Assembly (NCBI RefSeq): GCF_030410395.1
Contig: NZ_JAUHHF010000005.1
Coordinates: 124,001 to 188,000, forward strand
Length of the DNA stretch: 64,000 nucleotides
Source of the DNA: Zwartia panacis
GTDB taxonomy: Bacteria; Pseudomonadota; Gammaproteobacteria; Burkholderiales; Burkholderiaceae_B
Reading direction: 5' to 3'
In this document: positions 144 to 20,177 of the stretch, in pieces
How positions within the stretch are numbered: position 1 is the stretch's first letter
How the letters are laid out: every line of letters starts with the position of its first letter
The notes under the pieces: generated by a model
Told to the model about the DNA's origin: nothing
Databases searched by the model: none
Seen by the model: the letters and a program-made list of their open reading frames with translations, nothing else
Position numbers and translations under genes: made by a program

Positions 144-1370
144 ATGGCAGTTGTACACAAGAAATTCTCCTTCACGCTAGAAGGTCTGCCTGAGATTGGC
201 GAATATTTTGGGTATGAAGACTATCGGCTCGCACAACCCGAAAGAGGGCTGTTTTATGTTGGCATCGGCGATCGAAGAAGGGTCAAATTGCCCGAGCGTC
301 ATCACAACCGTGGGCATTCGAATATTGCCAATGTTCACGGAGTATTGAGGAAGGTGGTCAAAGTATTTGACTCAGTTGATGAGATGAATGCTTGGGAAAT
401 TTCCCGAATAAAGCAGGTCCGCAATGCAGGATTAACCTTGGTTAATAAGGCTGACGGAGGTGAGGGAACCAGAGGCTTGATGCCTTGCAGAAATTTATTA
501 ACGGGCGAAACCCAAGTTTTCCGTATTGATGAAATACCCGAAGGATGGGCTCATTCCTCTACGGGGATGGTTCCTTGTAGAAACATATTGACAGGTGAAT
601 CAACCAATTTCGCTAAAGGCGCAATTCCTGAGGGTTGGGAAACTGTTGGCAAACGTCTTGTTTTAACTAGACATATCAGCACTGGTGAAATGAAACGCTT
701 CTTCCCTGAGAGTGTTCCCGAGGGATGGACTGCTGCTAACACAGGTAGAGCAACTTTTAAGAATCCCTTAACGGGCGAGACTGCTATGTTCGACACAGCA
801 CAAGTTCCAGAGGGATGGGTACACATTTTTACTGGAATGGTTTCGTGTCGAAATATGGAGACAGGTGAAAACGCTGCGTTTCCTGTAGATGCGATACCAA
901 AGGGCTGGTCAGGTGTAACCAAAGGCTGGATGGCGATGAAGAATCCTGTCACTGGTGAAACTGGTTCATTTCTCAAAGGAACAGCACCTGCAGGTTGGGT
1001 TGGAGTGAACTCAGGTAATAAAAAGAAAAACTCCAACTTTGAAAAGGTCGAACAAATTGCAATTGCTAATCCTAATGCAACCAGAGCAGAACTTGTGGAG
1101 CTTTGTGTTGCGGCAGGAATCAACAAAAGCACCAGTAATGTCTATTGCAACAAACTAGGGTTGGGTAAAGAAGATCCTACATTTGCAATTAATCTTGAAT
1201 TGTTAAAAAACTATGTCAAACTTCATAAGCGAATTCCAGGCAGAAACTTTGATTTCGAGGGAGTTCGACTGGGTCTCTGGTGCGACGGTTTAAGGAAAAA
1301 ATTCGCCCGAGGAACTTTGTCAGAAATTCGTCAAGCAGAGCTAGAGAAGATTAACTGTTGGCGTTGGTGA
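144..1370 (+). CDS. GIY-YIG-like nuclease with six 30-residue TGE...PEGW repeats
   Basis: The protein has 408 residues. Residues about 35-108 resemble GIY-YIG-superfamily nucleases of phages: FYVGIG near 37-42, an Arg/His-rich stretch, and an LVNKADGGEG ending near 99-108. Residues about 111-290 are six tandem copies of a module carrying TGE..xF and (I/V)PEGW; the TG of each copy falls at residues 120, 150, 180, 210, 240 and 270, an exact 30-residue period. The C-terminus (about 345-402) has a W-xxGLRKKFARGTLS pattern like a helicase-associated DNA-binding domain. Similar repeats occur in homing-endonuclease-like proteins of large phages (family knowledge). I infer a DNA-binding, possibly DNA-cleaving protein. 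No good Shine-Dalgarno precedes the ATG. It converges on the small ORF downstream with a two-base gap. Confidence 0.6.
   Translation: MAVVHKKFSFTLEGLPEIGEYFGYEDYRLAQPERGLFYVGIGDRRRVKLPERHHNRGHSNIANVHGVLRKVVKVFDSVDEMNAWEISRIKQVRNAGLTLVNKADGGEGTRGLMPCRNLLTGETQVFRIDEIPEGWAHSSTGMVPCRNILTGESTNFAKGAIPEGWETVGKRLVLTRHISTGEMKRFFPESVPEGWTAANTGRATFKNPLTGETAMFDTAQVPEGWVHIFTGMVSCRNMETGENAAFPVDAIPKGWSGVTKGWMAMKNPVTGETGSFLKGTAPAGWVGVNSGNKKKNSNFEKVEQIAIANPNATRAELVELCVAAGINKSTSNVYCNKLGLGKEDPTFAINLELLKNYVKLHKRIPGRNFDFEGVRLGLWCDGLRKKFARGTLSEIRQAELEKINCWRW
474..1013 (+). repeat. six diverged 90-bp in-frame tandem repeats
   Basis: Each unit encodes 30 residues with a TGE box and a PEGW-like box. The copies keep the period without any insertion or deletion but have diverged at the base level, so this is an old protein repeat rather than a recent slippage array. 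Confidence 0.85.
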
Positions 1371-1820: not shown

Positions 1821-2402
1821 TTAAACCGTCAATTCAGAAAGCGACTTTTCCTTTCTTATGTAATTCATCCAATCATCAGCTTCCGACCTGATCAGTGGTT
1901 CGATCAGAAAGCTTGAGACGGTATCTAGGCTGTATAGATCCTTCTTCAGACGAACATCGAGCTCTTGCAGGTCGTAATTGAAAATTCTAGGAGCTAGTTC
2001 GGTCTTAACAAATAAAACTCCGTGGATGTGATGTGGAGCGTTACTTTTAGGCACTGGTTTAAAAAAGCTACCTTGTTCATACTCATATTGAAAGAAAGGA
2101 TCCATTGGTAATACTAGGTTCCATTTAGAACTGGATCGACTGAGTCTTTTCTTAATTTTGTTTAGAACTCGATTTTCGAACTGATATTCGACTGCTCTTT
2201 TCATCCCGTCTGAGGTTTCCAGTGGAACTAGGTTCTTAAAGGTAATTGTTATTGCAAAAGGAACACATTCATCACTTTCAAGTATCCAGTCGAGTATCTG
2301 AGTGGACTGGTTTATAGGATTAGACAGGGACTTTTGGAGGATCTCGGTTCCATACCGTCTATTGAATTCTGTAGGTTCTAGGTCGTTAATAGACTTGATC
2401 AT
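1821..2402 (-). CDS. candidate HUH-type replication initiator or nickase
   Basis: The protein has 193 residues from ATG 2400-2402; a longer frame to 2474 needs a TTG start and gives an unlikely Pro/Arg-rich leader. Three features in order recall rolling-circle Rep/HUH nucleases: a hydrophobic strand FAITITFKN like motif 1, HHIHGVLFV matching the metal-binding HxH motif 2, and WMNYIRKE matching the YxxK motif 3 that carries the nicking tyrosine. Size and order fit small Rep/transposase-like HUH domains. No full family match was recognised, so nickase activity is inference. The gene stands alone between a terminator upstream and the RHH operators downstream. A Shine-Dalgarno is not obvious. Confidence 0.45.
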   Translation of the reverse strand: MIKSINDLEPTEFNRRYGTEILQKSLSNPINQSTQILDWILESDECVPFAITITFKNLVPLETSDGMKRAVEYQFENRVLNKIKKRLSRSSSKWNLVLPMDPFFQYEYEQGSFFKPVPKSNAPHHIHGVLFVKTELAPRIFNYDLQELDVRLKKDLYSLDTVSSFLIEPLIRSEADDWMNYIRKEKSLSELTV

Positions 2403-2542
2403 TTGTTTTCGCTTTATTCTGGGTGTGAAAGGATTATCGACTCGATGCCGACAAGGTGGGTAGGGTGGATGCAAACAGGGCAGCCTCTACGGAAGCGATA
2501 CGGGCTTAACTGGCGGCGTATTCGGTTCGTATAACTATTTAG

Positions 2543-2571
2543 TAAAAAAAAGACCGCTCAGAGGCGGTCAG
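2543..2571 (-). terminator. rho-independent terminator after the clamp gene
   Basis: On the minus strand a GACCGCC/GCGGTC stem with a short loop is followed by a run of T. It lies about 20 bases past the sliding-clamp stop codon and ends the loader-clamp operon. Confidence 0.85.
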
Positions 2572-2589
2572 GATGAAATATTTACAAAT

Positions 2590-3282
2590 TTATTTACTTT
2601 CAGTATCAATTGAGAAGTCATTTGCTGCGATGTAATAGGTTAGGCATTTGGACTTGCCAACAAAGCGAACTACTGTCGCTTTTGCAATTTCAACAGAATA
2701 ATCATCTTCAAGAAATTTAAGATTGTCGATGAAAATTCTAAGATTAAATTTACGATCACTTTGAGCTAAAGTTATCGTTAAACATTCGTCATCAATTTTT
2801 TTAGAATTTTGTACCCGAGCGACAATAAGCTCACCGTTGCCTTCAATTGTTAGGTTTTGAACGCTAAGTGCATTTGAAGATTTAGGCTTCATCAGATTTG
2901 CGTATTTCATTATGTCTTTGATCACGATCCAGCTTAAGTCAAACCTGATCCCAGAAGGATCAAATTTAATATCCTTAGTAATTGATGTCAGTTTGTTTTC
3001 ATCAGCTAAAGCAAATACAGCCTCGGATTGATGATTGGAAATTTTTATCGAATTGTCGTTAAAAAATATTTCTGAATCATTTAAAAATGAAAGGCAAGAC
3101 ATAATTTTGCTTAATTCATATGTGGCCGCCTTTACGGGTATTACTTCTGAGATATTTGCTTCAACAGCGACCGATTTATTTTGAGAATAGCTGCTTACTT
3201 TTGTACCTTCGCGGAAAATGAACTGGTTATTGATTGCGGAGAAATTGTTCAAAATTTCAACGGTTTCTTTCGATAATTTCAT
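2590..3282 (-). CDS. phage T4 gp45-like DNA sliding clamp
   Basis: The protein has 230 residues against 228 for T4 gp45. The N-terminus MKLSKETVEILNNFSAINNQ closely follows that of gp45 (MKLSKDTTALLKNFATINSG, from memory), and the similarity continues through an EANISEVI segment near residues 42-49 and a DL/EL-type strand before SFLND. Sliding clamps encircle DNA and tether polymerases and other enzymes. It lies 10 bases downstream of a gp44-like clamp-loader gene whose stop codon overlaps this gene's AAGGAAC Shine-Dalgarno, so the two are translationally linked. There is no DNA polymerase, gp62-like subunit or late-transcription gene in the visible island. The host has its own unrelated-sequence beta clamp, so this copy must serve the element. 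Confidence 0.8.
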   Translation of the reverse strand: MKLSKETVEILNNFSAINNQFIFREGTKVSSYSQNKSVAVEANISEVIPVKAATYELSKIMSCLSFLNDSEIFFNDNSIKISNHQSEAVFALADENKLTSITKDIKFDPSGIRFDLSWIVIKDIMKYANLMKPKSSNALSVQNLTIEGNGELIVARVQNSKKIDDECLTITLAQSDRKFNLRIFIDNLKFLEDDYSVEIAKATVVRFVGKSKCLTYYIAANDFSIDTESK

Positions 3283-3292
3283 TTAATGTTCC

Positions 3293-3904
3293 TTAGTTAA
3301 TTTCAAATTGAAGGGTCTTAATCATCCGTCTAACATCTGGAAATGTGTTTTCTAAGATTTGATCCAGAAGCTTGACGCTTGGGGGCGGGTGACCTTCGAG
3401 TAAAGCGATTTGACTTAGATGTGCCTTGAGCTGAGTAGACAATTCATCGGATTGCTCAAGGTTAAAATTCACAGGTAAAAACCGAGACCTAACTGCATTA
3501 GTTAGCTTATTTGGATCGTTAGCCGTTAAAACAAAATCGTTATGTAACGCTAACTCTTCCGACACCGCTCTAATAGCTGCTTGGGCGTCTGAAGTTAAGT
3601 TGTCGGCTTCATCCAGCAAAAGTAAACGGCGACCACCAGTAACGACACCCGAAGCAAACTCACTTTCGAGCCAACGGATGGTATCGATTGAATTATTTGT
3701 AGAACAATTAATGAAGACCGTGTTTTCAGGATTAATTAATTTGGCTACGGTGGTTTTCCCACATCCTGCATTTCCATAGAAAAGAAGAGATAGCCCCCCC
3801 TTCTTATTCACAATCCCTTGAAGTTTTCCCCTTAAGTCGTTTGACAGCAATACATCGTCAAGTTTTTTTGGTCGATATTTCAGACCCCAGTCAAGGTGTT
3901 CCAT
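3293..3904 (-). CDS. T4 gp44-like clamp-loader ATPase lacking the collar domain
   Basis: The protein has 203 residues. It begins WGLKYRPKKLDDVLL, the loader N-terminal box, then has Walker A GNAGCGKT (44-51), Walker B LLLLDEAD (94-101), sensor 1 TAND (127-130) and an SRF arginine-finger motif (140-142). It ends right after the lid helix (FPDVRRMIKTLQ), where T4 gp44 (319 residues) continues into the collar domain that holds the loader pentamer together. The ending is real: the clamp gene starts 10 bases later, leaving no room for a lost tail. It contains AAA+ and lid domains only. It sits between a DUF3102-like gene (8-base gap) and the clamp gene in one operon. It could load the clamp through a different assembly, or act on it in another way (inference). 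Confidence 0.8.
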   Translation of the reverse strand: MEHLDWGLKYRPKKLDDVLLSNDLRGKLQGIVNKKGGLSLLFYGNAGCGKTTVAKLINPENTVFINCSTNNSIDTIRWLESEFASGVVTGGRRLLLLDEADNLTSDAQAAIRAVSEELALHNDFVLTANDPNKLTNAVRSRFLPVNFNLEQSDELSTQLKAHLSQIALLEGHPPPSVKLLDQILENTFPDVRRMIKTLQFEIN

Positions 3905-3912
3905 ATCTCACC

Positions 3913-4554
3913 TCAAGCCGCTTTACGGATTAAAGGTTGAAGCGCTGACTTTAGTTTGGGAGCGACGGTTACCTTGACCTTAAGGTCTTTAAGAGTTTTG
4001 ATGATCATTTGAATTTGTGATTTCAACTGCACATCAGTGGCGTCTTCTAATTCACACGTAAACGAGTAACCGACAGGAGTTCCATTTGGAACCTCTTCAG
4101 TTGTGGTGGATGTGGATACCGCTTCATCCTTGCCTGCGTTTTCTGAATGAGTGCCGTTAATAGACTTAATGACAGACCCTAAAACATTCTGGTGAATAAC
4201 TCCTTCGGCGATGTATTTCTTAAGCTCCGCGCTGGTCAACCGAGAAATCTCATAGAGAGTTGTCCAGTTGTTTGGTAGGTTTTGAGCCTGAGACTTCAGC
4301 TCTGTATACCCCTTGCCAATTTGAGACAGTTTTTTGATTGAGCTTGATGTAGATTTGAAGCCGATTTTTGTACAGAAAATTTCAAATTCAGCTTTATTAC
4401 CCTTGAGTTTGCTTTTAGTCTCAAAAACGACACGACCCATTTCCAGGATGTTTTCAGCAGTTTTCCGAGCGTAGCCTTTGAACTCAGTCGCTGATTCCTG
4501 AATAAAATTGATTCCGTTATTTGATAATTTAGTGTTAACAGATGAGTTACTCAT
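3913..4554 (-). CDS. DUF3102-like phage/element protein
   Basis: The protein has 213 residues. The first ~110 (KTAENILEMGRVVFETKSKL ... FEIFCTKIGFKSTSSSIKKL ... WTTLYEISRLTSAELKKYI) follow the pattern of DUF3102-like proteins of phages and plasmids, which are helical and often encoded near replication or partition genes. A Ser/Thr-rich linker (about 135-160) leads to a C-terminal alpha/beta piece (ATDVQLKSQIQMIIKTLKDLKVKVTV). The start has an AAAGGAA Shine-Dalgarno. It is the first gene of the operon with the clamp loader and clamp, so it may bring those proteins to the element's DNA (inference). Family assignment is from motif memory only. Confidence 0.5.
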   Translation of the reverse strand: MSNSSVNTKLSNNGINFIQESATEFKGYARKTAENILEMGRVVFETKSKLKGNKAEFEIFCTKIGFKSTSSSIKKLSQIGKGYTELKSQAQNLPNNWTTLYEISRLTSAELKKYIAEGVIHQNVLGSVIKSINGTHSENAGKDEAVSTSTTTEEVPNGTPVGYSFTCELEDATDVQLKSQIQMIIKTLKDLKVKVTVAPKLKSALQPLIRKAA

Positions 4555-4704: not shown

Positions 4705-5421
4705 ATGAAAAAAACACACCAACGTCACTTTCCTTACCAACATCCAACATTTGGAACCGAAAAGCGTCCGAAACAACCTTGGTATTGGGAGGACACGATT
4801 TACTTCTTATGGTGGAGCTACTTAAAGCGGAACGATGAGTACCTACAAACCTGTGAAGCATCGGGGGCGACAGGCTTAAAAAGTCTCTACGCGGACTTTG
4901 GCGATGTTCGAGGGGGGAGTTTTAAGGAATGGTGGTCTTACGAGAGTCGTGGAATGAGACTGTTTGCTGAACCATTGGTCGCTAATACCCTTCAAGTCGT
5001 TTCCAAGGAAGAGATAGGCGACTTTGAAGGCGATCTACTTTTCTTGAGCGTTCCCCTTAACTTACCAAAAAAATTTCTTCTTGAGCGATTTAGAAAGGTT
5101 TTGGCAGAGCATCACAAAGGAGAAGTGGGGAGGCAGTACGCCAAAAAAAGTAAGGCGAAATATCAATTCAAGGGACAGCCAAATATTAGAGGGATGAGAA
5201 TAGCCTTAGACGTTTACGATTACATCAAGGCTAATCCGAACAAAAAGCTATGGGAAGTGGGAAAGACCTTGCCCCAATTCCAAATGGAATTAAATGAGTG
5301 CGAAAAAAAGGGAATTGTCCCTTCCTATGATTTGAAGAGAACGATTGAAGCTACTGTAAGTCGTTACAAGCGCAAAGCTACCCAAACCATAAAGAATGTA
5401 TCTCTAGGACTCTTCCCTTAA
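4705..5421 (+). CDS. hypothetical protein, Trp-rich N-terminus
   Basis: The protein has 238 residues and I recognise no family. The first 60 residues are unusually rich in Trp and Tyr (WYWEDTIYFLWWSYLKRN), and the second half is basic (KKSKAKYQFKGQ, KRKATQTIK), suggesting nucleic-acid binding. It has no signal peptide or membrane segment. It starts 150 bases from the divergent DUF3102-like gene; the ATG lacks a clear Shine-Dalgarno. Its stop overlaps by four bases the stop of the convergent gene at 5418-6071. It could be an element-borne regulator. Confidence 0.5.
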   Translation: MKKTHQRHFPYQHPTFGTEKRPKQPWYWEDTIYFLWWSYLKRNDEYLQTCEASGATGLKSLYADFGDVRGGSFKEWWSYESRGMRLFAEPLVANTLQVVSKEEIGDFEGDLLFLSVPLNLPKKFLLERFRKVLAEHHKGEVGRQYAKKSKAKYQFKGQPNIRGMRIALDVYDYIKANPNKKLWEVGKTLPQFQMELNECEKKGIVPSYDLKRTIEATVSRYKRKATQTIKNVSLGLFP

Positions 5422-6187: not shown

Positions 6188-6775
6188 TTATTGATAACCC
6201 GAACGTCTTGCCGCGATAACAATCGCCGCGTCGTTAGCTAATTTCGCTTCTGACAACAATTTCTGTATTTGTTCAGCAGACATACCTTTAGTTGCGATTG
6301 GACTGGACTTCTGAACTGCTCTCCTTCGAGCAAGCTCAACTTTATCCCAAATTTCACCAATGTTGACCTTAAGAATTTTGCAAGCGTCATCAAGGGCTAG
6401 TTGTGGTAATGGTTGCGACTTTATAGAGATTGTCACTTTAGGGGTGAGTGGAGCTACTTCTTTTGGATCGTCCAAGACTTTAGGGTCAGCACCTAGAAGG
6501 TCTGGTTGCATTGTATGTGGCAATGAAGTGTGAGGTAGCTCTATGGAAGGCTTCGCTGTGCTAGTAGTAACAGTCGTAACTTTAGGGTCTAGAATATTCT
6601 TCTGACTCGATTCGACTTTATTAATTCGCTCTCGCAATGCCAAAGATCTTGGAACTTGCCTAAAACTAAGTTCGTGTTTGAGACGGGAGAGGATTGTTAA
6701 ATCCTCTCCTTGCTTCTGAAAAATCTCTTCTAAGTCTGCGATACCAAGTCGCGCCATTGGTCGGTCTGTAGTCAT
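6188..6775 (-). CDS. unknown partner of the giant helicase-nuclease, translationally coupled
   Basis: The protein has 195 residues. Residues about 9-50 (LGIADLEEIFQKQGEDLTILSRL ... LRERINKV) form a predicted helical domain. Residues 60-110 are a Pro/Thr-rich linker. The C-terminal ~80 residues are helical and end in a basic tail. Its ATG shares one base with the helicase stop codon (TAATG), so the two are translationally coupled and probably act together. No enzymatic motif seen. I infer an accessory or specificity subunit of the helicase-nuclease; no named system was matched. Confidence 0.55.
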   Translation of the reverse strand: MTTDRPMARLGIADLEEIFQKQGEDLTILSRLKHELSFRQVPRSLALRERINKVESSQKNILDPKVTTVTTSTAKPSIELPHTSLPHTMQPDLLGADPKVLDDPKEVAPLTPKVTISIKSQPLPQLALDDACKILKVNIGEIWDKVELARRRAVQKSSPIATKGMSAEQIQKLLSEAKLANDAAIVIAARRSGYQ

Positions 6776-9700
6776 TAGACATCCTCTCTCTCTTCAACCA
6801 CTTCAACCTCAAAGGGATCAACCTCTTTGTACTCAACCCAAACAGTGCTATCAACGGTTTCAGATCCAATAGGTTCGATTCCTAATTTTTCTAAGGTTTG
6901 CAGAAGGTCTGAAATCACTTCTTCGCGTCGACGCACGAAACTGGAAGCAAAGCACCTCCAAAAAGTCCAGCCGGCACGTTCTAACACTCGTTGACGCGCC
7001 ATATCGTCGCTCCATTGACCCGGACCGTGGAATCGATCGCCATCGCATTCAATGGCTAGACGCCGCCCTTCGTTACCTTCTACAACAAAGTCTATGAAAT
7101 AACCTCCACTTGGGACCTGTGGAGTAACCCGATATCCGCGTTTTACTAGTTCATCAAAAACCTCTAACTCGAAGCCTGACTCACATTTTTCTCTAAGGCT
7201 TTCCACCTTTTTAACGTCTTGTCGGAATGGCTGCTTGAAATGCTGAATAACACGACTTGTAAGAGAGTCATCCTTTGATTCGTTTTCAGTAACAGAGCGG
7301 AACAAATACATTCGATCACGAGCACGCGAGAGGGCCACGTTAAAACGTTGGTGCATATCAGCTCTGTTCGCAGCTCCCCGATCACCCGGACCAATCACCA
7401 TCGATACCATCATTACATCTCGCTCCCGTCCCTGAAATACAGGAGGTGGCCCGACACTGATCTTTCGGGCAACAATTTCCGAGGGTGAAATTTCTTCGGA
7501 AATTAGCTTATGGATATGGCTTGCCTGTTCGGTGCCCATTAGCGTGACGACACCGATTGTTCGACCATCAAATTGGGGATCTGAAATTAGTTTTGAAATC
7601 TCTTCGACGATGGCTTTAGCTTCTGCTTTATTGATGTCGTTTCGTCGATTACCACCTTTTACGAACACATCGACCAAAGGAGGGTCAAGACGTTCGTTCG
7701 CTTTGGGAACTCGAAGCGGACGAATATCCCCCTCGTAGAACTCACGATTTGAAAACTCGATGATGGCTGGAACACTTCGGAAATGTTCTTTAAGCATCAC
7801 CGAATTTCCGGCGAACACTACGCGTGCTAAATCATAAATTGACTTGTCAGGAGTCATTTCAGAACCGTGCGGTTGCTCCCCTAAGAAGCGGCTAACCAGC
7901 TCTTTAACTCTTTCTTCTGCTGCCCCAACTGCTGACGGGGAAACCTGTTTATGGTCTCCAACGATAAGCAATTTCTTTCCTCTCAGCAAAGCTGGTAATG
8001 CCATAATATCGGACTGCGAAGCTTCGTCAACTATTACGAGATCAAATAAACCAACCTCTGCTGGAATTGTTTCAGAAACACGCCATTGCGGAAGCACCCA
8101 GCACGGGACGGCCTTGTAAGCACGGACCATTGCTTCCCGAGCATTCTTTCTATGACGGACGGCACGAACACCTGTACCAGAACCCATCGCCTGTACGGCA
8201 TTTAAGTAGGCTTGCAATGCTTGTCGAACGCTGTCTGGCGAGTTGTTAAAGACACCAAGCCAAGTTTTTTCCGCAACAAGCTCTTGGTATGTTTTCGCTA
8301 GAGTGGCAGTTAGTTGTCTTCGCTCTTCAATCAAATCACGAATTTTGTGATGGCTGTCGAGTCGATCTAAGAACCCCACGGCTAAACGCCAATCCCACGC
8401 TTCACGCCAAGTAAATGGCACAACACTGTCGATCTCGCTATCAACTACCAGTGCTCTAGTTCGGCTCGCCCACTTGGGGGCACCAGAGTGTTCAATTTTG
8501 TTGGCCACTTCTACGATGGTGGAAATATGAATCCAAAGGCTTTGTAGTTTTTCTAGCTCTGCCAATTTGGCTAGCCAAGTTGCTTGCAAGGTATCTTCGT
8601 TCGAATTCAGCTGACCTATTTGGTACGTCAAGAAATCCCGAAGCTCGCTTACGATGTTGCCGGAATGCCCGTCTAGTTTTTTCAGAATCTCCTCTAGTCG
8701 ACGCATTGCATATCCGAGGCGCCCCTTATCAAGATGAGACTGCAAGCTCTCGCTTATATTTTTGATGGCGCTTACATCGTTCGCTTTCAGTTGCGTAGAA
8801 ACGTTCTTACCAAACACCTCACCGACTTTATTTGCCAGATGAGCATCAAATTCGAACTGAAGCTGATCTGCGTCTTTAATCGCTGTGATTGAAGTCACTA
8901 AGCCTCTAAAGGCTTGTTCTGGTGCTTCATTAATGGCCTCAAAGTCAAACTCTCCATACAATGATGTCCATCGAGCCAAAGCCTTTCTTGCTTTTAATCT
9001 CCATTCGACTAACTCCCGTACGTTCAGCCAATCTTCAACCGCTTTGGGTTTGATTCCAGCGACTGTAACCAAACTCACGAGTCCTCGCGGAACGGCACTA
9101 CCTATTGGCAATTTAAATGCGCTCTTACCAGCAACTAAGCGCTTGAGCGCCTCATTGAATTCCTCATTGAGTTCGGAGTTCTCTGGTAGCTGAACAGCTT
9201 TTGAAACTAGTGCTGCTCTTTCTGTTTCCAACTCAAGTAATAAATCGCAAACCAGCCTCAGCGTAACGATCAACGGATCGGTAGTTTCCTTATTTGCCAT
9301 CCGGCCTCTGAAGGAGGTGATCCAAGGTAAGTTAACTGCAGACAATCGATCCGCAACTTGTTGCCGGTTTTCTAAAAACTCTGAAAGCTGATTTGCCTTG
9401 GTAAATGTCTCTGATGTTGCATCAATCAGAGGGAGTACGGAACCCTTCTCGACAGCAGCCTCAATCTTTTTCGCTCTAACAAGGTCTCGGTGCAGCGCCA
9501 GCAGATCAACCCACGCAGGAAAATCATTTGCTTTGGGTATGCTGCAGCCTACGTAGCTAAGATTGCTACCCACCGCCTTTCGGGACTGTCTTAACGCTGC
9601 GACCTCTTCGTCAGTAGCTGATATTTCTGAATTTTCAGGAAGCTCATCATCAAACCATTGATGAGAGTCAGCTTGTTCAAGAACCTCTCTCGCCATCTCT

Positions 9701-11247
9701 TCGGGGCTAACGGACTTTCCTCTAAATTCATACGTTCGCATTTGACGTTGCGCGTAATCCTCAACGGTCTTATCTACGTTTGAAATCTTTGCGTGCAGTT
9801 GATCTATTAACGACTCCCCAGCAATGATAGCTTTTTCAGATTGAGTAGGATTTAATTGCGACACCCGAGCAGCAATTGTTTGAATTGAGTGTTCAAACTG
9901 CTTTTTACCGTCTCGCTCGTCAGAGAGAAGTGATACACAAAGCGGGCGAATTCTTTCTGGAAGTTTTTCCTGAACAACTGCCAATGCAGATTCACCTTTT
10001 GCAGTAACCAACACTCGTTTGCCTTGAGCGAGGTAATGGCAAATGACGTTTGCAATCGTGTGTGTCTTACCCGTTCCTGGAGGTCCTTGAACGACTACAC
10101 CGTCGTTACTCTCTAGCTTACGGATTATTGAGACTTGCTCTTCGTTATAGGGCATCGGAAAAAAAAGTTCACGCGCTCCGCTTGGATTGTTGCTGGTAGA
10201 TAATCCCCGAAAAGGTATTTCTGGTTGTCTGCGTACAGTATCGTCACCCGAGGTTACAAAGCTTTGAATAACCCCCGGAAGTGTTTCGATAGTTTCAAGT
10301 TTTTGCCTAAGACGTCTGACATCTTCAAGTAGGATATCTCCTGATCGTTTTCGTCCAAAAATCACCCACCCGTTTGTTACAAGCATCTTATTGGAGGGGG
10401 TAGGTAGTGAAGCCCATCCTTCAGAGGTCACATAACTACCAGTCGGGTCAAGGTGACCGACCGCGGCGCGTAAGGTCGGCTCAAACGTACTTTCCTCGAA
10501 CGGAGTAATCCGATTTGTCCCCGTTGCTTGAACGTTCTTCCAAAATGTTTCAAGCTGACTGATGCCGGAAATTTCCAGTTCGGCATAACAGTCAATTTCC
10601 AATTTGGCTTCAACATCCCTAGGACGGATTTCCAAATCAAGCGTAATTTCATTAAGCGTTACGTTGCACGTCTGTAAAAGCAACGGGTGTTTGATTGGGG
10701 TCGGATAGCCCTCTTTTTTCCAAACTGCATAGCCGATGCCCCAAACCAGCTCCAAAGGAGTCTCTGCACCTTCTGAAGAAATTGCCTGTTGAAGCGCAAA
10801 CAACTTGTTATAGAAGGAAATAGATTTACGGCGAGGACGCTCCGTTTGCGACCAAGGCTTCCAAAGGAACTCCACATACCAATCAAACTGGGCTTTTACC
10901 TCTTGGTTGTTACTCAATAGCTCGCGACGTGTTTCACCGCTTCCTTGGGTTATCGTGATCTCTTGTTTAATCTCTGGGGGCTTTTCCGGAGATTTTGATA
11001 TCGTCACCCAAGGCTTAAGCAGATCATCTAATTCGGGCGGCGCAACTTCTTGTAATCGAGGCATTTTCAGCCAAACGTCATCTCCACCTAGCTGAAGATT
11101 AAATTGCAGTTCAGGCAGATTGAGCAGGTCGTGACGGTGAGCAACAAAATAATCATCCGGCAAGCTAAAAGTCGGCTTTCGCTTTAGTTTTTCTATTTGT
11201 TCGATGTAGTTCAGCAGGCTAATAACCTTGGCAGCAGACTCAATCAC
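6775..11247 (-). CDS. giant SF1 (Upf1-like) helicase fused to a Vsr/MTES_1575-type nuclease
   Basis: The protein has 1490 residues and a GTG start. Residues 1-350 are an unrecognised N-terminal region. A Q-motif-like YNEEQ (367) is followed by Walker A GPPGTGKT (388-395). A long helical insertion follows, then motif II VIVDEASQSD with VGDHKQVSP (motif III), GRERDVMMVSMV, and the motif VI box FNVALSRARDR. The last ~100 residues carry a PD-(D/E)xK nuclease of the Vsr/DUF559/MTES_1575 type: FELEVFDELVKRGY, a catalytic FIDFVV ... AIECDGDRFH, then WTFWRCF. Helicase-Vsr fusions are a known class of phage-defence proteins, for example Hhe with a DUF4011 domain; the DUF4011 signature was not found here. 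The gene is followed by a coupled partner gene and lies next to serine recombinases, a typical defence cargo position. The role is inferred from architecture. Confidence 0.8.
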   Translation of the reverse strand: MIESAAKVISLLNYIEQIEKLKRKPTFSLPDDYFVAHRHDLLNLPELQFNLQLGGDDVWLKMPRLQEVAPPELDDLLKPWVTISKSPEKPPEIKQEITITQGSGETRRELLSNNQEVKAQFDWYVEFLWKPWSQTERPRRKSISFYNKLFALQQAISSEGAETPLELVWGIGYAVWKKEGYPTPIKHPLLLQTCNVTLNEITLDLEIRPRDVEAKLEIDCYAELEISGISQLETFWKNVQATGTNRITPFEESTFEPTLRAAVGHLDPTGSYVTSEGWASLPTPSNKMLVTNGWVIFGRKRSGDILLEDVRRLRQKLETIETLPGVIQSFVTSGDDTVRRQPEIPFRGLSTSNNPSGARELFFPMPYNEEQVSIIRKLESNDGVVVQGPPGTGKTHTIANVICHYLAQGKRVLVTAKGESALAVVQEKLPERIRPLCVSLLSDERDGKKQFEHSIQTIAARVSQLNPTQSEKAIIAGESLIDQLHAKISNVDKTVEDYAQRQMRTYEFRGKSVSPEEMAREVLEQADSHQWFDDELPENSEISATDEEVAALRQSRKAVGSNLSYVGCSIPKANDFPAWVDLLALHRDLVRAKKIEAAVEKGSVLPLIDATSETFTKANQLSEFLENRQQVADRLSAVNLPWITSFRGRMANKETTDPLIVTLRLVCDLLLELETERAALVSKAVQLPENSELNEEFNEALKRLVAGKSAFKLPIGSAVPRGLVSLVTVAGIKPKAVEDWLNVRELVEWRLKARKALARWTSLYGEFDFEAINEAPEQAFRGLVTSITAIKDADQLQFEFDAHLANKVGEVFGKNVSTQLKANDVSAIKNISESLQSHLDKGRLGYAMRRLEEILKKLDGHSGNIVSELRDFLTYQIGQLNSNEDTLQATWLAKLAELEKLQSLWIHISTIVEVANKIEHSGAPKWASRTRALVVDSEIDSVVPFTWREAWDWRLAVGFLDRLDSHHKIRDLIEERRQLTATLAKTYQELVAEKTWLGVFNNSPDSVRQALQAYLNAVQAMGSGTGVRAVRHRKNAREAMVRAYKAVPCWVLPQWRVSETIPAEVGLFDLVIVDEASQSDIMALPALLRGKKLLIVGDHKQVSPSAVGAAEERVKELVSRFLGEQPHGSEMTPDKSIYDLARVVFAGNSVMLKEHFRSVPAIIEFSNREFYEGDIRPLRVPKANERLDPPLVDVFVKGGNRRNDINKAEAKAIVEEISKLISDPQFDGRTIGVVTLMGTEQASHIHKLISEEISPSEIVARKISVGPPPVFQGRERDVMMVSMVIGPGDRGAANRADMHQRFNVALSRARDRMYLFRSVTENESKDDSLTSRVIQHFKQPFRQDVKKVESLREKCESGFELEVFDELVKRGYRVTPQVPSGGYFIDFVVEGNEGRRLAIECDGDRFHGPGQWSDDMARQRVLERAGWTFWRCFASSFVRRREEVISDLLQTLEKLGIEPIGSETVDSTVWVEYKEVDPFEVEVVEEREDV

Positions 11248-11437: not shown

Positions 11438-12091
11438 ATGGCAGCTTATGGTTATGTTCGAGTAAGTACTCTTCAGCAGGCGAACGAAGGCGAGAGTTTG
11501 GAAACACAGCTTCGTCAGATCAAATCGTATTCAGAGCTTAAGGGATACAGCCTTTCTCAAGAGAATCTCATCACCGAAAGAGGGGTGAGTGGTAGCCTTG
11601 AATTTGAAAAGCGACCCGAGGGCGCCAAGCTATTCGACAGCCTTCAGACAGGCGATATTCTTATTTTTTCTAAACTTGATCGAGCTTTCCGCAATACAAG
11701 AAATGCATTGAACACCCTTCACGAATTAAAAGAACGAGGTGTATCTGTCCACTTCATCGACCTTGGGGGCGATGTAACTAACGACGGCATTGGTTCAGTG
11801 ATCTTTACGATTCTTTCGGCGTTTGCAACTTTTGAGCGTGAGCGTATAGCAACCCGAATTCGTGAAGTGAAACAAGTTCAGAAATCAGAAGGGAAGTTTC
11901 TTGGAGGCTTTACTCGTTTTGGTTACTCTGTAGATGATGAGAAACTAGTACCAAATCCAGAGCAACAGGCAATTATTAAAGAAATGCGGGTTATGAGGCG
12001 ACGAGGGATGAGCTTACGCCGAATTGCAAAATGGCTTGATAGGTCGTACGGCGTTGAAATGTCACATTCAACTGTTTCAACTTTTGTATAA
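11438..12091 (+). CDS. small serine recombinase (resolvase/invertase family)
   Basis: The protein has 217 residues. The catalytic serine is in GYVRVST (5-11), with conserved LDRAFRN (the SKLDR box), ILSAFATFERE and the E-helix ERIATRIREVK. A short C-terminal helix-turn-helix ends near MSLRRIAKWLDRSYG. The size is usual for resolvases and invertases. The GTT-rich leader lacks a strong Shine-Dalgarno, but the start codon precedes the universal N-terminal strand. It is followed after 39 bases by a large serine recombinase. It could resolve or invert DNA within the island or help excision. Confidence 0.85.
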   Translation: MAAYGYVRVSTLQQANEGESLETQLRQIKSYSELKGYSLSQENLITERGVSGSLEFEKRPEGAKLFDSLQTGDILIFSKLDRAFRNTRNALNTLHELKERGVSVHFIDLGGDVTNDGIGSVIFTILSAFATFERERIATRIREVKQVQKSEGKFLGGFTRFGYSVDDEKLVPNPEQQAIIKEMRVMRRRGMSLRRIAKWLDRSYGVEMSHSTVSTFV

Positions 12092-12130: not shown

Positions 12131-13864
12131 GTGGGTGTTTTAATAACTAAGCCAAGCAACCCTGATAAAACCCTTCATATCTACACAAGGGTTTCAACAG
12201 TTGCTCAAGCTGACCAAGGAACCTCACTTACTACTCAACACCAGTTAGGTGTGAAAAGAGCAAAGGCTCTTAAGTTTGAACCAAAGCATTGGAATGAGGG
12301 TGGTAAAAGCTCGCACCACGAGGATATGGCTGATCGTCCTAAGTTGTTAGCCCTATTCGAAGCGGTTAAGCGTGGAGAGGTTAAGCACCTTTGGGTTTAC
12401 GACCAGTCTAGGCTTTCAAGAAATGACCAAGTAGCTTCGATCTTCCGTTACGAGTGTAATAAGCAGGGCGTAACACTCTATACAAAGGATGGTCAGTTCG
12501 ACTTATCTAATCCCCAAGATAAATTTTTAAAACTGATATTGGATGGTATCGGAGAGTTTGAAAACTCAGTTAGATCTGAAAAAACACGGCTAGGTAAGGT
12601 TAATAGAGCTCGTCAAGGTTTTTGGTATGGAGGACCGCCCCCATTCGGGTACCAAATTATTGAAAAGAAGCTCGCACTAAACAAAGCTGAATCGGTGTGG
12701 GTAAAAAAGATATTCACGTTAACGCAAAAGGGAGAAACTACATTAGGAATTAAAAAATTACTTGATTCGAACGGGGTACTTCCGAGACGCAAGAAGGGAA
12801 CGTGGTCTATAGGATCAGTACAGTCTCTCATCAAAAACACTCACTACAAAGGCGAGTACCACTATCACGATAAGAAGAGTGATGAAAAGATTGTTCTCAG
12901 TTGCCCAGCGATAGTTGACGTGACAACTTGGAAAGCAGTTCAGCAACTTAAAACTAGGGACACGAGTCGAGTGTCGCAACAAAATAGAACGAAGCAGTTT
13001 TACTTGTTGAGGGACATAATGGTTTGCGGGCATTGTGGAAGACATATGTCTGCCAGACGAAAGGTAAGTAAAAACGAACAGCTTTACTATTGCCCAAACA
13101 AAGAAAGAGATTGGGTAAATAACGGGGGCTCAGCCACTCCGTGGAAACGGGGTGAGGGATGTGGAATGACACGTTCACTAAACATACCTGAAACTGATCA
13201 GCTCGTCTGGGATGCGGTCATTGAGGCACACAGAAATTCGAGTCTGCTCAAGGAAGAAGTGAAGTGGAAGATACTTGAGGAGAGTGGGGCTCCTCTATCT
13301 AAAAACGAAACTGACTTGAAAGCGTTAGAGCGTCAGCTTAAACAAATTCAAAAGAGCTTACATTCGGCTAAAGAATCTCAGGCCAGTTTGTTAGTGGGTA
13401 AGTCATCGGGGGCGATCAAGGCTGATATCTACGCGATGGCTCTTCAACAGTCCAATGATGAAATCCATAATCTTGAAGTAAAGCTAGCTAACATTCAGCT
13501 ACAGCTTCGGGGCGAGAACGAGTCAAAAAAATGGGTGAGTTGGCTCAAAATATTTGGTAAGAGTTTGGATGAAAAAAAGCTGCTTCCAGATGAGCAAAAA
13601 AAGCTGTATTTAATGGGTCTTTTGGAGCAAATAAAGGTTAGATATGACCTTAAGAAGAACGAACACGAACTCACTTTGCAGTTTCGGTTGCCAATTATCG
13701 GAGATGGTCTAATTTGGACCAATCCTGACAACATTAAAGATGGTTATAAGATCAAACGAGGTAAAAAAGCTACTAAAGTGACTGTCAAAAAAAAAGATGC
13801 TCGATGGTCAAATTTAAAGACCAAAATGACCCCCGAACGGAACCAGTCCGTTACGGTGGAGTGA
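12131..13864 (+). CDS. large serine recombinase, probable integrase of the island
   Basis: The protein has 577 residues and a GTG start. The N-terminal catalytic domain has IYTRVST (serine near 22), YDQSRLSRN and a long E-helix (IGEFENSVRSEKTRLG). A recombinase domain follows (GPPPFGYQI ... GTWSIGSVQSLIKNTHYKG). A zinc-ribbon domain is seen as MVCGHCGRHM with YYCPNK and a later GCGM. The coiled-coil segment (about 390-450) is the usual subunit-contact motif of phage-type integrases. The last 60 residues are very basic. Large serine recombinases integrate unidirectionally at att sites, usually beside their own gene, so the right junction should lie within the next ~100 bases. Confidence 0.85.
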   Translation: MGVLITKPSNPDKTLHIYTRVSTVAQADQGTSLTTQHQLGVKRAKALKFEPKHWNEGGKSSHHEDMADRPKLLALFEAVKRGEVKHLWVYDQSRLSRNDQVASIFRYECNKQGVTLYTKDGQFDLSNPQDKFLKLILDGIGEFENSVRSEKTRLGKVNRARQGFWYGGPPPFGYQIIEKKLALNKAESVWVKKIFTLTQKGETTLGIKKLLDSNGVLPRRKKGTWSIGSVQSLIKNTHYKGEYHYHDKKSDEKIVLSCPAIVDVTTWKAVQQLKTRDTSRVSQQNRTKQFYLLRDIMVCGHCGRHMSARRKVSKNEQLYYCPNKERDWVNNGGSATPWKRGEGCGMTRSLNIPETDQLVWDAVIEAHRNSSLLKEEVKWKILEESGAPLSKNETDLKALERQLKQIQKSLHSAKESQASLLVGKSSGAIKADIYAMALQQSNDEIHNLEVKLANIQLQLRGENESKKWVSWLKIFGKSLDEKKLLPDEQKKLYLMGLLEQIKVRYDLKKNEHELTLQFRLPIIGDGLIWTNPDNIKDGYKIKRGKKATKVTVKKKDARWSNLKTKMTPERNQSVTVE

Positions 13865-13884: not shown

Positions 13885-13949
13885 AATTATTTTTAATAAT
13901 TCCATAGTATGTGGATGAGATTGATCTAAACACCACATACTTATGGAAT
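13885..13949. other. inverted repeats at the island/chromosome junction
   Basis: An AT-only palindrome AATTATT-TTT-AATAATT (13885-13901) is followed by a larger imperfect palindrome. The arms of the second are 13899-13914 (attccatagtatgtgg) and 13933-13949, complementary except for one extra T, with an 18-base spacer. The right arm runs into the ATG of the first hydrolase. The position directly downstream of a large serine recombinase makes it a candidate attachment site; it could also be an operator of the hydrolase gene. Confidence 0.4.
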
Positions 13950-13953
13950 GATG

Positions 13954-15108
13954 ATGAAAATAAAAACCCTCAGTGGAGCCTTGCTTTCTCTAGTACTTCT
14001 TGCCTCTTCGGTGGGAAACAGCGTGGCCTGTACAGTTTTGGCAATCAGAGACGCCAATGGGAACGTTTACCAAGCTCGCAGTAATGAGTTTGTCGGACAG
14101 CAGCCTGATGCACTCACTTACTACCCGCCTGGCACCAGAATCGAATCTGTTACACCGGATGGCAAACAAGGCAAAACATTTAATACAAAGTATGCAATTT
14201 TTGGTGCGACCCTTAAGGGGATGACGCCCAATGCAAAGCAAGAAACAATTCATGAGGCCGTTAATGATCAGGGCATGTCTCTGACGACTAACGCATTTAT
14301 GGGCAATACAAGTCCCAATATTACTCAGCCACCTGAAAAAGTATTGTCAGTGATGGATTTTGGAACATGGGCGCTAGGAAGTTTTCAAAATGTTGAAGAG
14401 GTTAAGAAAGCTTTAAAAAATAAAGAGGTCGATCTTTGGTTACCTAAAATCGCCTCGATGGGAGATTTTATTGCGCCTCTTCATTTTGCACTGTATGACA
14501 AAAAGGGCGGCAGTATTGTGATCGAATTTGATAATGGAATACACATCTACGATAACCCTTCTTATGTGATGACGAATGACCCGCCGCTGCCATGGCATCT
14601 TCAAAATTTAAATGACTATGCTGATCTGACTAACATTGATAAAAACAAGCAACAATTCAATGGTTTTGAGGCAAAAGCCGGATCTGGTGGTATTGCATTG
14701 AGGGGATTGCCTTCTAACCAGCTGTCATCAGGAAGGTTTGTGAAAGCAGCGTTCTATTCAAACTTCGCTCGCAAAGCTAAAACGCCCGAGCAAGCGATAT
14801 TTACGCTCGGTCATGTGATGAATAACTTTGACAGACCACTGGATATCTCGGTGGATGAGCCAGTCAAGGGAACGTTCTCTACAGTTTTTTCAATGACTGC
14901 TGGCGTTGGATCTGAGTCAACTTTCTTCACGGTTTTGAATGACTTGTCACAGAACCATTTTTATATCCGTACGATCAACAGTTTGAATTTTTCCAAATTT
15001 GATATCAAAAAAATGAGTGGCCTGAAAGAAATTACTGTCGTCAAGTTTCAGACAATTAATGATTACAAGAGTCTGGATGCGACGGGCTTATTTTTGAAAA
15101 AATCATAG
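13954..15108 (+). CDS. exported choloylglycine hydrolase / penicillin V acylase family protein, paralog 1
   Basis: This is a Cys-Ntn amidase of the CBAH/PVA family, which cleaves amides such as bile-salt conjugates, penicillin V or acyl-homoserine lactones; the actual substrate is unknown. A signal peptide ends in SVA just before CTVLAIRD, so signal peptidase exposes the nucleophile Cys directly. Other expected active-site positions are ARSNEF, NDQGMSLTTNAF, VMTNDPPLPWH and SGRFVKAAFYSNF. Gram-negative members are periplasmic. Three ATG codons begin the frame (13948, 13951, 13954); the third has the best-placed GGA, and the longest form starts at 13948. It is close to paralog 3 and more distant from paralog 2. 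It is the first gene after the mobile island. Confidence 0.85.
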   Translation: MKIKTLSGALLSLVLLASSVGNSVACTVLAIRDANGNVYQARSNEFVGQQPDALTYYPPGTRIESVTPDGKQGKTFNTKYAIFGATLKGMTPNAKQETIHEAVNDQGMSLTTNAFMGNTSPNITQPPEKVLSVMDFGTWALGSFQNVEEVKKALKNKEVDLWLPKIASMGDFIAPLHFALYDKKGGSIVIEFDNGIHIYDNPSYVMTNDPPLPWHLQNLNDYADLTNIDKNKQQFNGFEAKAGSGGIALRGLPSNQLSSGRFVKAAFYSNFARKAKTPEQAIFTLGHVMNNFDRPLDISVDEPVKGTFSTVFSMTAGVGSESTFFTVLNDLSQNHFYIRTINSLNFSKFDIKKMSGLKEITVVKFQTINDYKSLDATGLFLKKS

Positions 15109-17113: not shown

Positions 17114-17132
17114 TTCAAAGGTGGCATAGAAA

Positions 17133-18263
17133 ATGAAAAATATGATCGGCTTTCTAACGGCGATTTCTCTAACCTTTGCTTCGGTCGGTCAGGCTGTCGC
17201 CTGTACGTCGATTTTGATCACGGATACGGAAGGACGAGCCTATCATGGGAGAACCCTGGAATACAGCGCCTTGTTGCCAATGGATATGACGTATTTGCCA
17301 GCGGGTATGCGAGTGATTTCACTGACTCCCTCCGGGAATCAAGGTGTGACCTTTGATACCAAGTATCCGATTCTGGGAATGAGCGCGAAAGTCGTGACAG
17401 CATCCAAACAAGTGACAGTTGCAGAGGGAATCAATGACCAGGGGCTTAGCTTTTCTGCGAACTGGCTGAATGGGACACGATCCCCTGCCGTCGGTAAGGA
17501 TCACTCAAAGGTGATGTCGGTCAGTGATTTGGGTATCTGGATTTTGGGAAATTTCAGAAATGCGCAAGATGTGAAAGAAGCCATCAAAAGCGGCAAACTC
17601 GAGTTTTGGGTACCAGAGAAGAATACGATCGCCCCTGATACACCGCTACCATTACATTATTCAATTAATGATAAAAAAGGTGGCTCAATCGTTGTTGAGT
17701 TCTTAGATGGAAAAACCCAGGTCTATGACAATCCAGTTGGGGTCATGACAAACGGTCCTGCTTTTCCCTGGCACCTGGAAAATTTGAACAACTACACTTT
17801 TAACAACGTCAATAAAAATACAGGGCAGCTGGGCAAACTTAAGCTGCAGACGCAAGACTCGGGTATTGCATTAACGAGTTTGCCTTCAGCCGAAACGACA
17901 CAAGGAAGATTCGTCAAGGCCGCCTTCTATGCCAATTACGTGCGCAAAGCAAAAGAACCCAATGAGGCCATTACGACGCTTGCTCATATTATGAATAATT
18001 TCGATCGTCCCTATGATTTGACAGTGGACATGGCTGGAGGCATGGGCGATGGGGTGACGCGCAATAACTCGAGTGAAGTCACGGTATGGACGACTTTACA
18101 AGATTTATCGCGCAACCTGCTGTACTTTAGAAGCATCAATGCGATGAACTGGTCTGTCATTGATATGAATAAGCTCAAAGATGTGAAGCAAATTAAATCC
18201 ATCTCGACCTTCGATGTGGATCAAGCAGGTGCGGATGCTTTCAAATTGTTCTATGCAAACTAA
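17133..18263 (+). CDS. exported choloylglycine hydrolase / penicillin V acylase family protein, paralog 2
   Basis: The protein has 376 residues. A signal peptide ends in AVA before CTSILITD (Cys24 becomes the N-terminal nucleophile). Active-site features: GRTLEYS, EGINDQGLSFSANW, VMTNGPAFPWH and TQGRFVKAAFYANY. It is the most diverged of the three paralogs, with MDMTYLPAG where the others have a QQPD...YYP(P/A)G segment, so it may have a different specificity. It stands between the kinase and its regulator and has its own candidate regulatory region (17040-17113). A GGTGG-type Shine-Dalgarno lies upstream. Confidence 0.85.
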   Translation: MKNMIGFLTAISLTFASVGQAVACTSILITDTEGRAYHGRTLEYSALLPMDMTYLPAGMRVISLTPSGNQGVTFDTKYPILGMSAKVVTASKQVTVAEGINDQGLSFSANWLNGTRSPAVGKDHSKVMSVSDLGIWILGNFRNAQDVKEAIKSGKLEFWVPEKNTIAPDTPLPLHYSINDKKGGSIVVEFLDGKTQVYDNPVGVMTNGPAFPWHLENLNNYTFNNVNKNTGQLGKLKLQTQDSGIALTSLPSAETTQGRFVKAAFYANYVRKAKEPNEAITTLAHIMNNFDRPYDLTVDMAGGMGDGVTRNNSSEVTVWTTLQDLSRNLLYFRSINAMNWSVIDMNKLKDVKQIKSISTFDVDQAGADAFKLFYAN

Positions 18264-19028: not shown

Positions 19029-20177
19029 ATGAAATTAAAAATAGTTTCGAAAATTTTACTGTCGACATGTCTTGCATTATCAACGGTTGCAAATACCTTC
19101 GCTTGCACTGTGCTGAGTATCAGAGATGCGAAGGGTAATGTTTACCAAGGCCGCACCAATGAATTTGCTGGGCAACAACCAGACTCGCTGATGTACTACC
19201 CAGCCGGCACACGCATTGAGTCAATGACTCCCGAGGGCAAGCCCGGCAAAACCTTTAATACCAAGTATGGCATCTTGAGCGTCACGCTTGTGGGCTTGGT
19301 CGCGAATGCCAAACAGGGGACCCTGCACGAGGCGGTGAATGATCAAGGCCTGACCATCACAACGAATGCGCTGATTGAAAATAATCCACCTGTCGCGACA
19401 GGACCGGCCGATAAGATTTTATCCGCACTGGATGTGGGCACTTGGGCATTAGGTAACTTCCAGAATGTCCAGCAGGTTAAACAGGCTTTGCAAAACAAAG
19501 AAGTTGAAGTTTGGTTGCCTCGGGTGCCCAGTATGGCGAATTTGTACGCACCATTGCATTTCGCGCTGTACGACAAGGCAGGAGGTTCGATTGTGATTGA
19601 ATTTACCGACGGAAAAACCTCGGTATACGATAATCCTGTCGCTGTCATGACGAACGATCCTCCGTTTCCATGGCACCTCAAGAATATGAATAACTATGCC
19701 TATCTGACTAATATTGATAAGAACACAGGTCAGTTCAATAATCTGAAAGTCGCTTCGACGGACAGTGGTGGAAATATGGCATCGCTACCATCGGTTGAAA
19801 CTTCAGTGGGACGCTTCGTCAAGGCAGCCTTTTATTCAAATTTTGTACATAAGGCTGAAACGCCCGATCAAGCGATCAAGACACTGTCGCATGTGATGAA
19901 TAATTTTGATCGACCCAAAGATGTCTCGGCTGATTTGCCAGGAACCGCGAGCAAGGCCGAGGCGTTTGCCGCCAATAAAATATCTTCTGAGTCTACTTAC
20001 TTTACAACGATGAATGACTTGAACCGTGGGTATTTCTATCTGCGTACGATTAATGGCATTAACTTTTCAAGATTCGATGTTAAAAAGCTTGCTGTGCTGA
20101 AACAAACCAAAGAAGTGAAGTTCAGCACAATCGATGCTTTTGGAAATCTTGATGCGACCGAATTGTTTTTAAAATAA
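19029..20177 (+). CDS. exported choloylglycine hydrolase / penicillin V acylase family protein, paralog 3
   Basis: The protein has 382 residues from the ATG at 19029, chosen because AAAGGAGAGGGAA lies just before it; a longer GTG frame (18972) has no such site. A signal peptide ends in TFA before CTVLSIRD (Cys26, the mature nucleophile). GRTNEFAGQQPDS, NDQGLTITTNAL, VMTNDPPFPWH and VGRFVKAAFYSNF mark the active site. It is clearly the sister of paralog 1, with near-identical stretches throughout. It follows the regulator gene and precedes a porin-like gene, so hydrolysis may be tied to substrate entry through the outer membrane. Confidence 0.85.
   Translation: MKLKIVSKILLSTCLALSTVANTFACTVLSIRDAKGNVYQGRTNEFAGQQPDSLMYYPAGTRIESMTPEGKPGKTFNTKYGILSVTLVGLVANAKQGTLHEAVNDQGLTITTNALIENNPPVATGPADKILSALDVGTWALGNFQNVQQVKQALQNKEVEVWLPRVPSMANLYAPLHFALYDKAGGSIVIEFTDGKTSVYDNPVAVMTNDPPFPWHLKNMNNYAYLTNIDKNTGQFNNLKVASTDSGGNMASLPSVETSVGRFVKAAFYSNFVHKAETPDQAIKTLSHVMNNFDRPKDVSADLPGTASKAEAFAANKISSESTYFTTMNDLNRGYFYLRTINGINFSRFDVKKLAVLKQTKEVKFSTIDAFGNLDATELFLK

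Follow-up and report, generated by a model that had tools for sequence, protein, structure and literature searches.

A T4-type sliding clamp and a gp44/RFC-like AAA+ loader that lacks the C-terminal collar are encoded in one tight operon on an integrative island of a bacterial chromosome, in a genome where no B-family polymerase was found. The protein families concerned are already known; their joint occurrence in this form appears to be new. We tentatively read the operon, at somewhat less than an even chance, as a DNA-tether module that a serine-recombinase integrative element has made from T4-type replication parts. The window, meaning the whole 64,000-nt stretch that was analysed, corresponds to C50:124001-188000 of the 3.34-Mb genome, and positions given without a contig name refer to it.

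A full-length T4-type sliding clamp

The clamp gene (2590..3282, minus strand) encodes a 230-aa protein that matches the DNA polymerase processivity factor family phrog_223 at E = 3.8e-42, with residues 1-222 aligned to profile positions 1-218 of 222, a full-length match to the gp45 family. The protein also matches Pfam gp45-slide_C over the family cut-off (E = 4.3e-6), and a phmmer search of the PDB returned three distinct sequences at E ≤ 10, each of them a gp45-type sliding clamp (best 1b77, 1.8e-15). An AlphaFold model, built as a monomer without Met1 from a 52-row alignment, reached a pLDDT of 90.3 and a pTM of 0.86. When this model was compared with the PDB by Foldseek, gp45 took ranks 1-4 (TM 0.85-0.88, E 2.6e-18 to 1.3e-16) and PCNA and the beta clamps ranked after it; the fold is the two-domain clamp fold, with gp45 nearest. 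The window clamp is about 24-33% identical to aligned phage-type clamps, with one at 18%, and retains 22 of the 31 columns that are at least 85% conserved in 58 phage-type clamps. In the clamp tree its nearest neighbours, with weak placement (91/83) and on a long branch, are two clamps from phages listed under Straboviridae. Together, these results confirm a full-length T4-type sliding clamp at 2590-3282, as claimed in a preliminary description of this DNA, which had named a structure search that failed to find gp45 as the outcome that would speak against it; the model matched gp45.

An AAA+ loader that ends where the collar would begin

The neighbouring gene (3293..3904, minus strand) encodes a 203-aa gp44/RFC-like AAA+ module, as judged from phrog_168, alignment and tree. 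Its match to phrog_168 (E = 6.7e-43) covers profile positions 11-208 of 314 only, and its PDB matches by sequence are RFC small subunits and gp44. Two alignments show an RFC-type AAA+ module with its catalytic motifs: Walker A, Walker B, a conserved Gln108, sensor 1, the SR finger and the sensor-2 Arg are all kept. From its place in the alignment, we take Gln108 to be the coupler glutamine, Gln118 of T4. The C-terminal collar is absent from the protein. The gp44 alignment stops where the collar would begin, the reading frame ends at the domain border, and a split or frameshifted collar is ruled out because the clamp gene begins 10 bp past the loader stop. The gp44-like ATPase of the preliminary description therefore stands as an AAA+ module but not as a full-length loader subunit.

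According to the available part of one account (PMC8121543), clamp loaders oligomerise through their collar domain. Since, in addition, none of 8 island ORFs compared with PHROGs gave a gp62-like match (a search that a very divergent gp62 could escape, and orf213 is family-less), loading may not work, and the AAA+ module alone does not warrant assuming a clamp-loader complex of the T4 kind. The loader tree places the window protein beside 20 gp44 sequences (97/90) and away from the AAA+ proteins of other elements, a position of which the long branches leave us unsure. PADLOC families at E ≤ 0.01 gave no match for the clamp or orf213, and matched the loader over short stretches around the P-loop only (best 1.1e-4).

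Operon layout and comparison with phage-type loci

On the minus strand, the family-less orf213 (3913..4554) comes first, followed after 8 bp by the loader and after a further 10 bp by the clamp; the three genes form an intact, tight operon with a G+C of 0.386, so the clamp and ATPase do share an operon as had been proposed. Directly 3′ of the clamp gene lies an intrinsic-terminator-like site (2552..2569, minus strand) consisting of GACCGCCTCTGAGCGGTC and then T8. The stretch contains five such sites against 3.0 expected, which makes the scan weak by itself. For orf213 no Pfam family was matched at E ≤ 1 and PHROG matches were at E 0.06 or worse only. Its relatives were confined to 2 of 150 genomes, this one and G487, where the homologue forms part of a 347-aa protein near recombinase genes. 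No relation to the orf287-type proteins discussed below was seen, and kinship with the ParB-like gene of a second clamp island (G947) was ruled out, as no significant match was obtained.

As a control we assembled 90 phage-type clamp loci, comprising 7 phage records, the best 80 of at least 534 confirmed IMG/VR loci and 3 contigs from metagenome-assembled genomes (MAGs). Both genes were present in 82 of them, and in all 82 the clamp precedes the loader. Every complete loader (76/76) is at least 312 aa long and extends 99-106 residues beyond the AAA+ match. In the window, by comparison, the loader comes first, the clamp second, and the collar is absent. The island thus resembles gp45 and gp44/62 of T4 (Straboviridae, Kyanoviridae and kin) in the fold, length and sequence family of the clamp, in the gp44 AAA+ motifs and in having adjoining clamp and loader genes. 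It differs in the collar-less loader, in the absence of a gp62-like match among the ORFs scanned, in the loader-before-clamp order, in residing on a chromosome-borne integrative element and in having no gp43-type polymerase that we could find in the genome.

The known polymerase partners of such clamps are in T4-like phages. Searching for the B-family polymerase domain PF00136 yielded 0 matches in the host genome, and the same search was positive in 5 of 14 control genomes; no T4-type (B-family) partner was therefore found, in line with the polymerase absence noted earlier.

An integrative island at glmS

The operon sits inside a 212-kb contig of a genome that is 100% complete and 0.63% contaminated. 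The island encodes a small serine recombinase (11438..12091, plus strand; Pfam Resolvase PF00239, 9.4e-32) and a large one (12131..13864, plus strand; PF00239 8.2e-20, PF07508, PF13408; phrog_95 6.3e-75), which agrees with the serine-recombinase island of the preliminary description. They are 62.5% (over 200 residues) and 52.5% identical, respectively, to those of a sister island in G023. A 10-bp att core repeat, ACGGTGGAGT, forms part of the large recombinase gene at its 3′ end (13853..13862, plus strand). The partner repeat, at C50:122582-122591, falls within the final codons of glmS, which are 1.4 kb to the left of window base 1; two serine recombinases and a repeat at each end mark the island as an integrative element. 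From about base 13859 on, the right flank matches another genome, G029 (81.7% over 644 columns), which together with the repeats gives an island of about 15.3 kb. The G029 site is not cleanly empty, as about 1.3 kb of other DNA separates its att-like repeats. G+C is 0.49-0.53 in the chromosome directly left and 0.36-0.48 along the island; at the right border it gives no mark, the flank (0.456) not being distinct from the island (0.431).

To the left of the window follow 1.4 kb of island, glmS and then ordinary chromosomal genes over 40 kb, as read by eye from ORF translations. A T4-like prophage on this side, which the preliminary description had named as an outcome that would speak against its reading, is thereby ruled out.

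Beyond the terminator-like site, and thus outside the operon, lies a gene for a putative HUH-type Rep/relaxase-like protein (1821..2474, minus strand). This assignment is by motif: HHIHG and Y-x-x-K (YIRK) are common to the protein and its 49% identical G023 counterpart. No Pfam match was obtained, hhalign of the two putative Rep families returned a probability of 1.4%, and the single-sequence model had a pLDDT of 43.6, so that of the HUH-like protein suggested earlier the motifs stand and the family assignment stays putative. Divergent from the operon is orf238 (4705..5421, plus strand), a conserved element protein with homologues in relatives. The cargo is a 1490-aa helicase-nuclease (6775..11247, minus strand), a candidate defence gene with PADLOC matches to PDC-S37 (6.7e-74) and Hhe (1.1e-42) and a Pfam match to the MTES_1575 nuclease domain (4.6e-30).

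Further genes lie near the two ends of the island. At 144-1370 (plus strand) a 408-aa protein carries a C-terminal helicase-associated (HA) domain (PF03457, 1.1e-7) and several tandem repeats like NxxTGExxxFxxxxxPEGW, with an N-terminus that looks GIY-YIG-like by eye only. At the glmS end, left of the window (L003:18963-19810), small PIN-like (PF01850 2.4e-4, under cut-off) and weakly HEPN-like (E 0.098) genes adjoin and are possibly a toxin-antitoxin pair. Right of the island there are three choloylglycine-hydrolase-like genes (13948-15108, about 17130-18251 and 19029-20177); two of them have one stop in the matched stretch, at its very end, and so show no sign of breakage.

Distribution of the clamp and loader

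The clamp query or phrog_223 gave matches in 1 of 61 relatives; sampling the class as a whole yielded 1 match in 369 genomes, and sampling the phylum 2 in 349. The samples overlap and each includes the genome itself. In phages, the clamp matched 1,713 records, all at less than 60% identity, with the 40 matches listed at 29-32%, and the loader matched 2,285, the best among the matches listed reaching 38.9%. Phage records gave no match for orf213 or the HUH-like protein. When GTDB contigs were scanned with an alignment of four clamps, 117 pattern matches and three relatives were returned. These three contigs carry a full-length loader in phage order and are most likely phage contigs in MAGs. The scan uses strict short patterns and may omit the genome itself and near records, and it can miss distant clamps.

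No plasmid record matched the clamp, orf213, the putative HUH-like protein or the G947 clamp. The loader matched six plasmid records annotated as dnaX or RFC, the AAA+ protein of G012 matched two dnaX records, and orf238 matched three Bradyrhizobium records; in two of these Bradyrhizobium plasmids, profile searches of the orf238 neighbourhood gave no clamp or loader match. Among viral contigs, single queries with the clamp, loader, orf213, HUH-like protein and G947 clamp yielded pattern matches of which none was confirmed, and the same held for the HUH pair and the orf213 pair used as alignments (at least 600 stretches in one search). T4-type clamps are thus almost confined to phages in the collections searched. 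Open-licence full texts gave nothing, among the matches listed, on an integrative island with a T4-type clamp and a collar-less loader.

The second of the two phylum matches leads outside phages as well. G947, of the same class, encodes a 217-aa T4-type clamp (phrog_223 6.4e-24; 98% probability in profile comparison), the start of which overlaps the end of a ParB-like gene. Within the same stretch of about 10 kb lie genes for a resolvase, for a large serine recombinase of the phrog_95 type and for a CAP12/PCTIR TIR protein. This island is unrelated to that of the window. It is alike in combining a T4-type clamp, a phrog_95-type large recombinase and candidate defence cargo; it differs in its partner gene and site, in giving no loader profile match among the ORFs of 34 kb, and in its clamp, which is 20% identical to the window clamp and keeps 16 of the 31 conserved columns where the latter keeps 22; the function of the G947 clamp may therefore have changed. 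The island (G947:C24, L217/L218) spans about 33.9-43.6 kb; the two end regions compared share no 12-base direct repeat, which leaves these borders unproven. Its neighbours read as chromosomal genes, for a large fatty-acid/polyketide synthase and a peptidyl-prolyl isomerase.

Collar-less AAA+ genes recur in related elements

The closest comparison is the sister island in the same genus (G023, L101), which also lies beside glmS, in the opposite orientation. It shares both serine recombinases, orf238 (52%) and the HUH-like protein with the window, has two unrelated genes where the window has clamp, loader and orf213, and carries a cytosine methyltransferase (by Pfam) as cargo. With no match to clamp or loader there, the module is not essential to such elements.

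Homologues of orf238 occurred in 6 of 200 relatives, and a profile search found them in 8 of 330 genomes of the order; both counts include the genome itself. DUF6641 matched in 12 of 200 relatives. Through these two families we fetched 31 loci, including the window, several of which share a genome and some of which overlap, and scanned them with profiles. The clamp profile matched in the window only. The loader profile, of which L114 is itself a member, matched strongly in five loci, namely the window, L114 (G012), L168 (G487), L211 (G713) and L214 (G704), and more weakly in the window's helicase, L169 and L213. Four of the 30 other loci thus encode collar-less gp44-like AAA+ proteins with no clamp.

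The four AAA+ proteins are 219-238 aa long from their predicted starts and have phrog_168 as best match, over the AAA+ part only. Lys50, Glu99, Thr127, Asn129 and Arg141 are invariant in the five element proteins and two phage gp44s; three of the four proteins from outside the window carry an altered Walker B Asp. In each of the four loci the AAA+ gene lies directly 3′ of an orf287-type gene, and in L114, L211 and L214 it is divergent from the orf238 homologue, as in the window; L168 has no orf238 match. From this arrangement the slot resembles a core slot and not random cargo. It is not always filled: the AAA+ gene is absent from 4 of the 8 loci with an orf287 match, and of the 16 loci among the 31 with an orf238 match, 4 have it and 12 do not. 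Moreover, the tree groups the window loader with phage gp44, apart from the element proteins and on long branches, and so gives no proof that the slot goes back to one ancestor. It may have been refilled by capture from a T4-like phage, or the other copies may have evolved fast; the sequences fit both.

No published name was found for these orf238/DUF6641/orf287 elements, which belong to the same order. They resemble the window island in having a collar-less gp44-like AAA+ protein beside an orf287-type gene (in the four loci above) and differ in lacking a clamp match and in carrying, in those loci, tyrosine instead of serine recombinases, which read as small and XerD-like. As a side observation, restriction-modification-like genes occur in such elements, type I-like in L111 and type III-like in L170, and L168 has a large restriction-like gene, all by eye.

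Proposed function and alternative explanations

Our best reading is that the phage-type clamp module serves the replication or maintenance of the element's own DNA, possibly at nicks. The clamp and loader, if made and active, would work after excision or during processing of element DNA. The AAA+ protein would open the clamp and set it on nicks or 3′ ends of the element, and may be assembled through orf213, a role suggested by the missing collar. Once loaded, the clamp would slide and keep host or element proteins on the DNA, a platform that could help the element to be replicated or maintained with no polymerase of its own.

Several observations favour this tether reading. The operon is tight and intact, the ATPase motifs are kept and so are most of the conserved clamp columns; the corresponding slot in some related elements also holds gp44-like AAA+ proteins; a second T4-type clamp sits on the unrelated G947 island; and a Rep-like gene lies nearby here, as a ParB-like gene does in G947. 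In the available part of PMC2988020, T4 gp44/62 is described as loading gp45 at nicks too, which suits a module acting at nicked element DNA, and under crowding gp45 is described there as able to act without a loader, which would ease the problem of the missing collar. Weakening the reading are the absence of the collar and of a gp62-like match, the lack of the module in the sister island, the putative status of the HUH protein, the orf287 and orf238 loci in which the AAA+ gene is absent, and the altered Walker B Asp in most of the other element proteins. Of the roles put forward in the preliminary description, element replication is the one favoured by position in related elements, and decoy, sensor and phage-parasite functions found no direct support.

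A broader form of the proposal, possible but doubtful, is that bacterial integrative elements have more than once taken over T4-type clamps and collar-less gp44-like AAA+ motors and turned them into a polymerase-free module. The AAA+ protein would here be a collar-independent ATPase that deposits or remodels clamps, marking or replicating element DNA or diverting phage replisomes to the benefit of the element. The presence of such a clamp and collar-less loader on a mobile island suggests that such islands can use phage replication parts alone. It raises three questions: can a clamp loader function once the collar is gone, do mobile elements employ clamps as platforms instead of as tethers for a polymerase, and are islands able to tap or block the replication of phages?

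The last question leads to the strongest rival, a phage-directed role, in which the module is a dominant-negative or decoy for the clamp and loader of T4-like phages or belongs to a satellite that borrows phage polymerase. We consider it unlikely. With no B-family polymerase found in the host, such a partner would need an external source, a loader subunit that has lost the domain for oligomerisation could plausibly act as a poison, and both clamp islands carry candidate defence genes, the PDC-S37/Hhe-like helicase-nuclease here and the CAP12/PCTIR TIR effector in G947. However, the clamp is far from phage-type clamps for a specific decoy, related AAA+ modules exist without a clamp, and PADLOC has no family for the clamp or orf213 and reaches the loader only around the P-loop. 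Nor does the island resemble a PICI-like phage satellite: packaging or capsid-redirecting genes were not matched in PHROGs by any of the 11 island ORFs that lie inside the window.

It is quite improbable that the clamp is instead a transcription or regulation factor that is loaded at nicks, moves along the DNA and switches on promoters of the element, in the manner of gp45 at T4 late genes. Nick-loaded gp45 is indeed the T4 late-transcription activator in the available part of PMC2988020, and loading at nicks would couple gene expression to the processing of element DNA, but T4 requires gp33 and gp55 according to the same part of that source, and neither family appears in the PHROG matches of eight island ORFs. 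Still less plausible is a fragment of a T4-like replication locus stranded in the island and being lost, a picture that the short loader and the match of both proteins to phage families might suggest. The gene order is opposite to that of all the two-gene phage-type loci, the loader is cut at a domain border with the next gene starting 10 bp on, its ATPase residues are retained, and both frames have stayed open over what must be a long divergence, identity to the phage relatives compared being at most 33% for the clamp and 39% for the loader. Finally, assembly error or phage contamination, which does occur, as the three phage-like GTDB contigs show, is ruled out by the position of the genes within a long contig between glmS and the G029-matching flank with att repeats at both ends, and has next to no likelihood in a genome this complete and this little contaminated.

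Relation to other mobile elements

SCC/SCCmec elements have paired recombinases and use the rlmH site, and Tn7 uses the glmS region. With Tn7-like elements the island has only this target region in common, as TnsA-E are missing from the Pfam matches of its 11 ORFs inside the window. Like SCC/SCCmec, it is a non-phage element in which two serine recombinases accompany an operon for replication-type proteins; it differs in being inserted at glmS and in carrying a clamp and AAA+ loader, not primase-helicase genes. The available part of PMC7581432 describes SCC/SCCmec-type serine-recombinase elements as carrying their own replication genes. Insertions seem to have landed at the 3′ end of glmS more than once: att-like repeats with different DNA beside glmS are also seen in L182 (G029:C57) and in L101 (G023).
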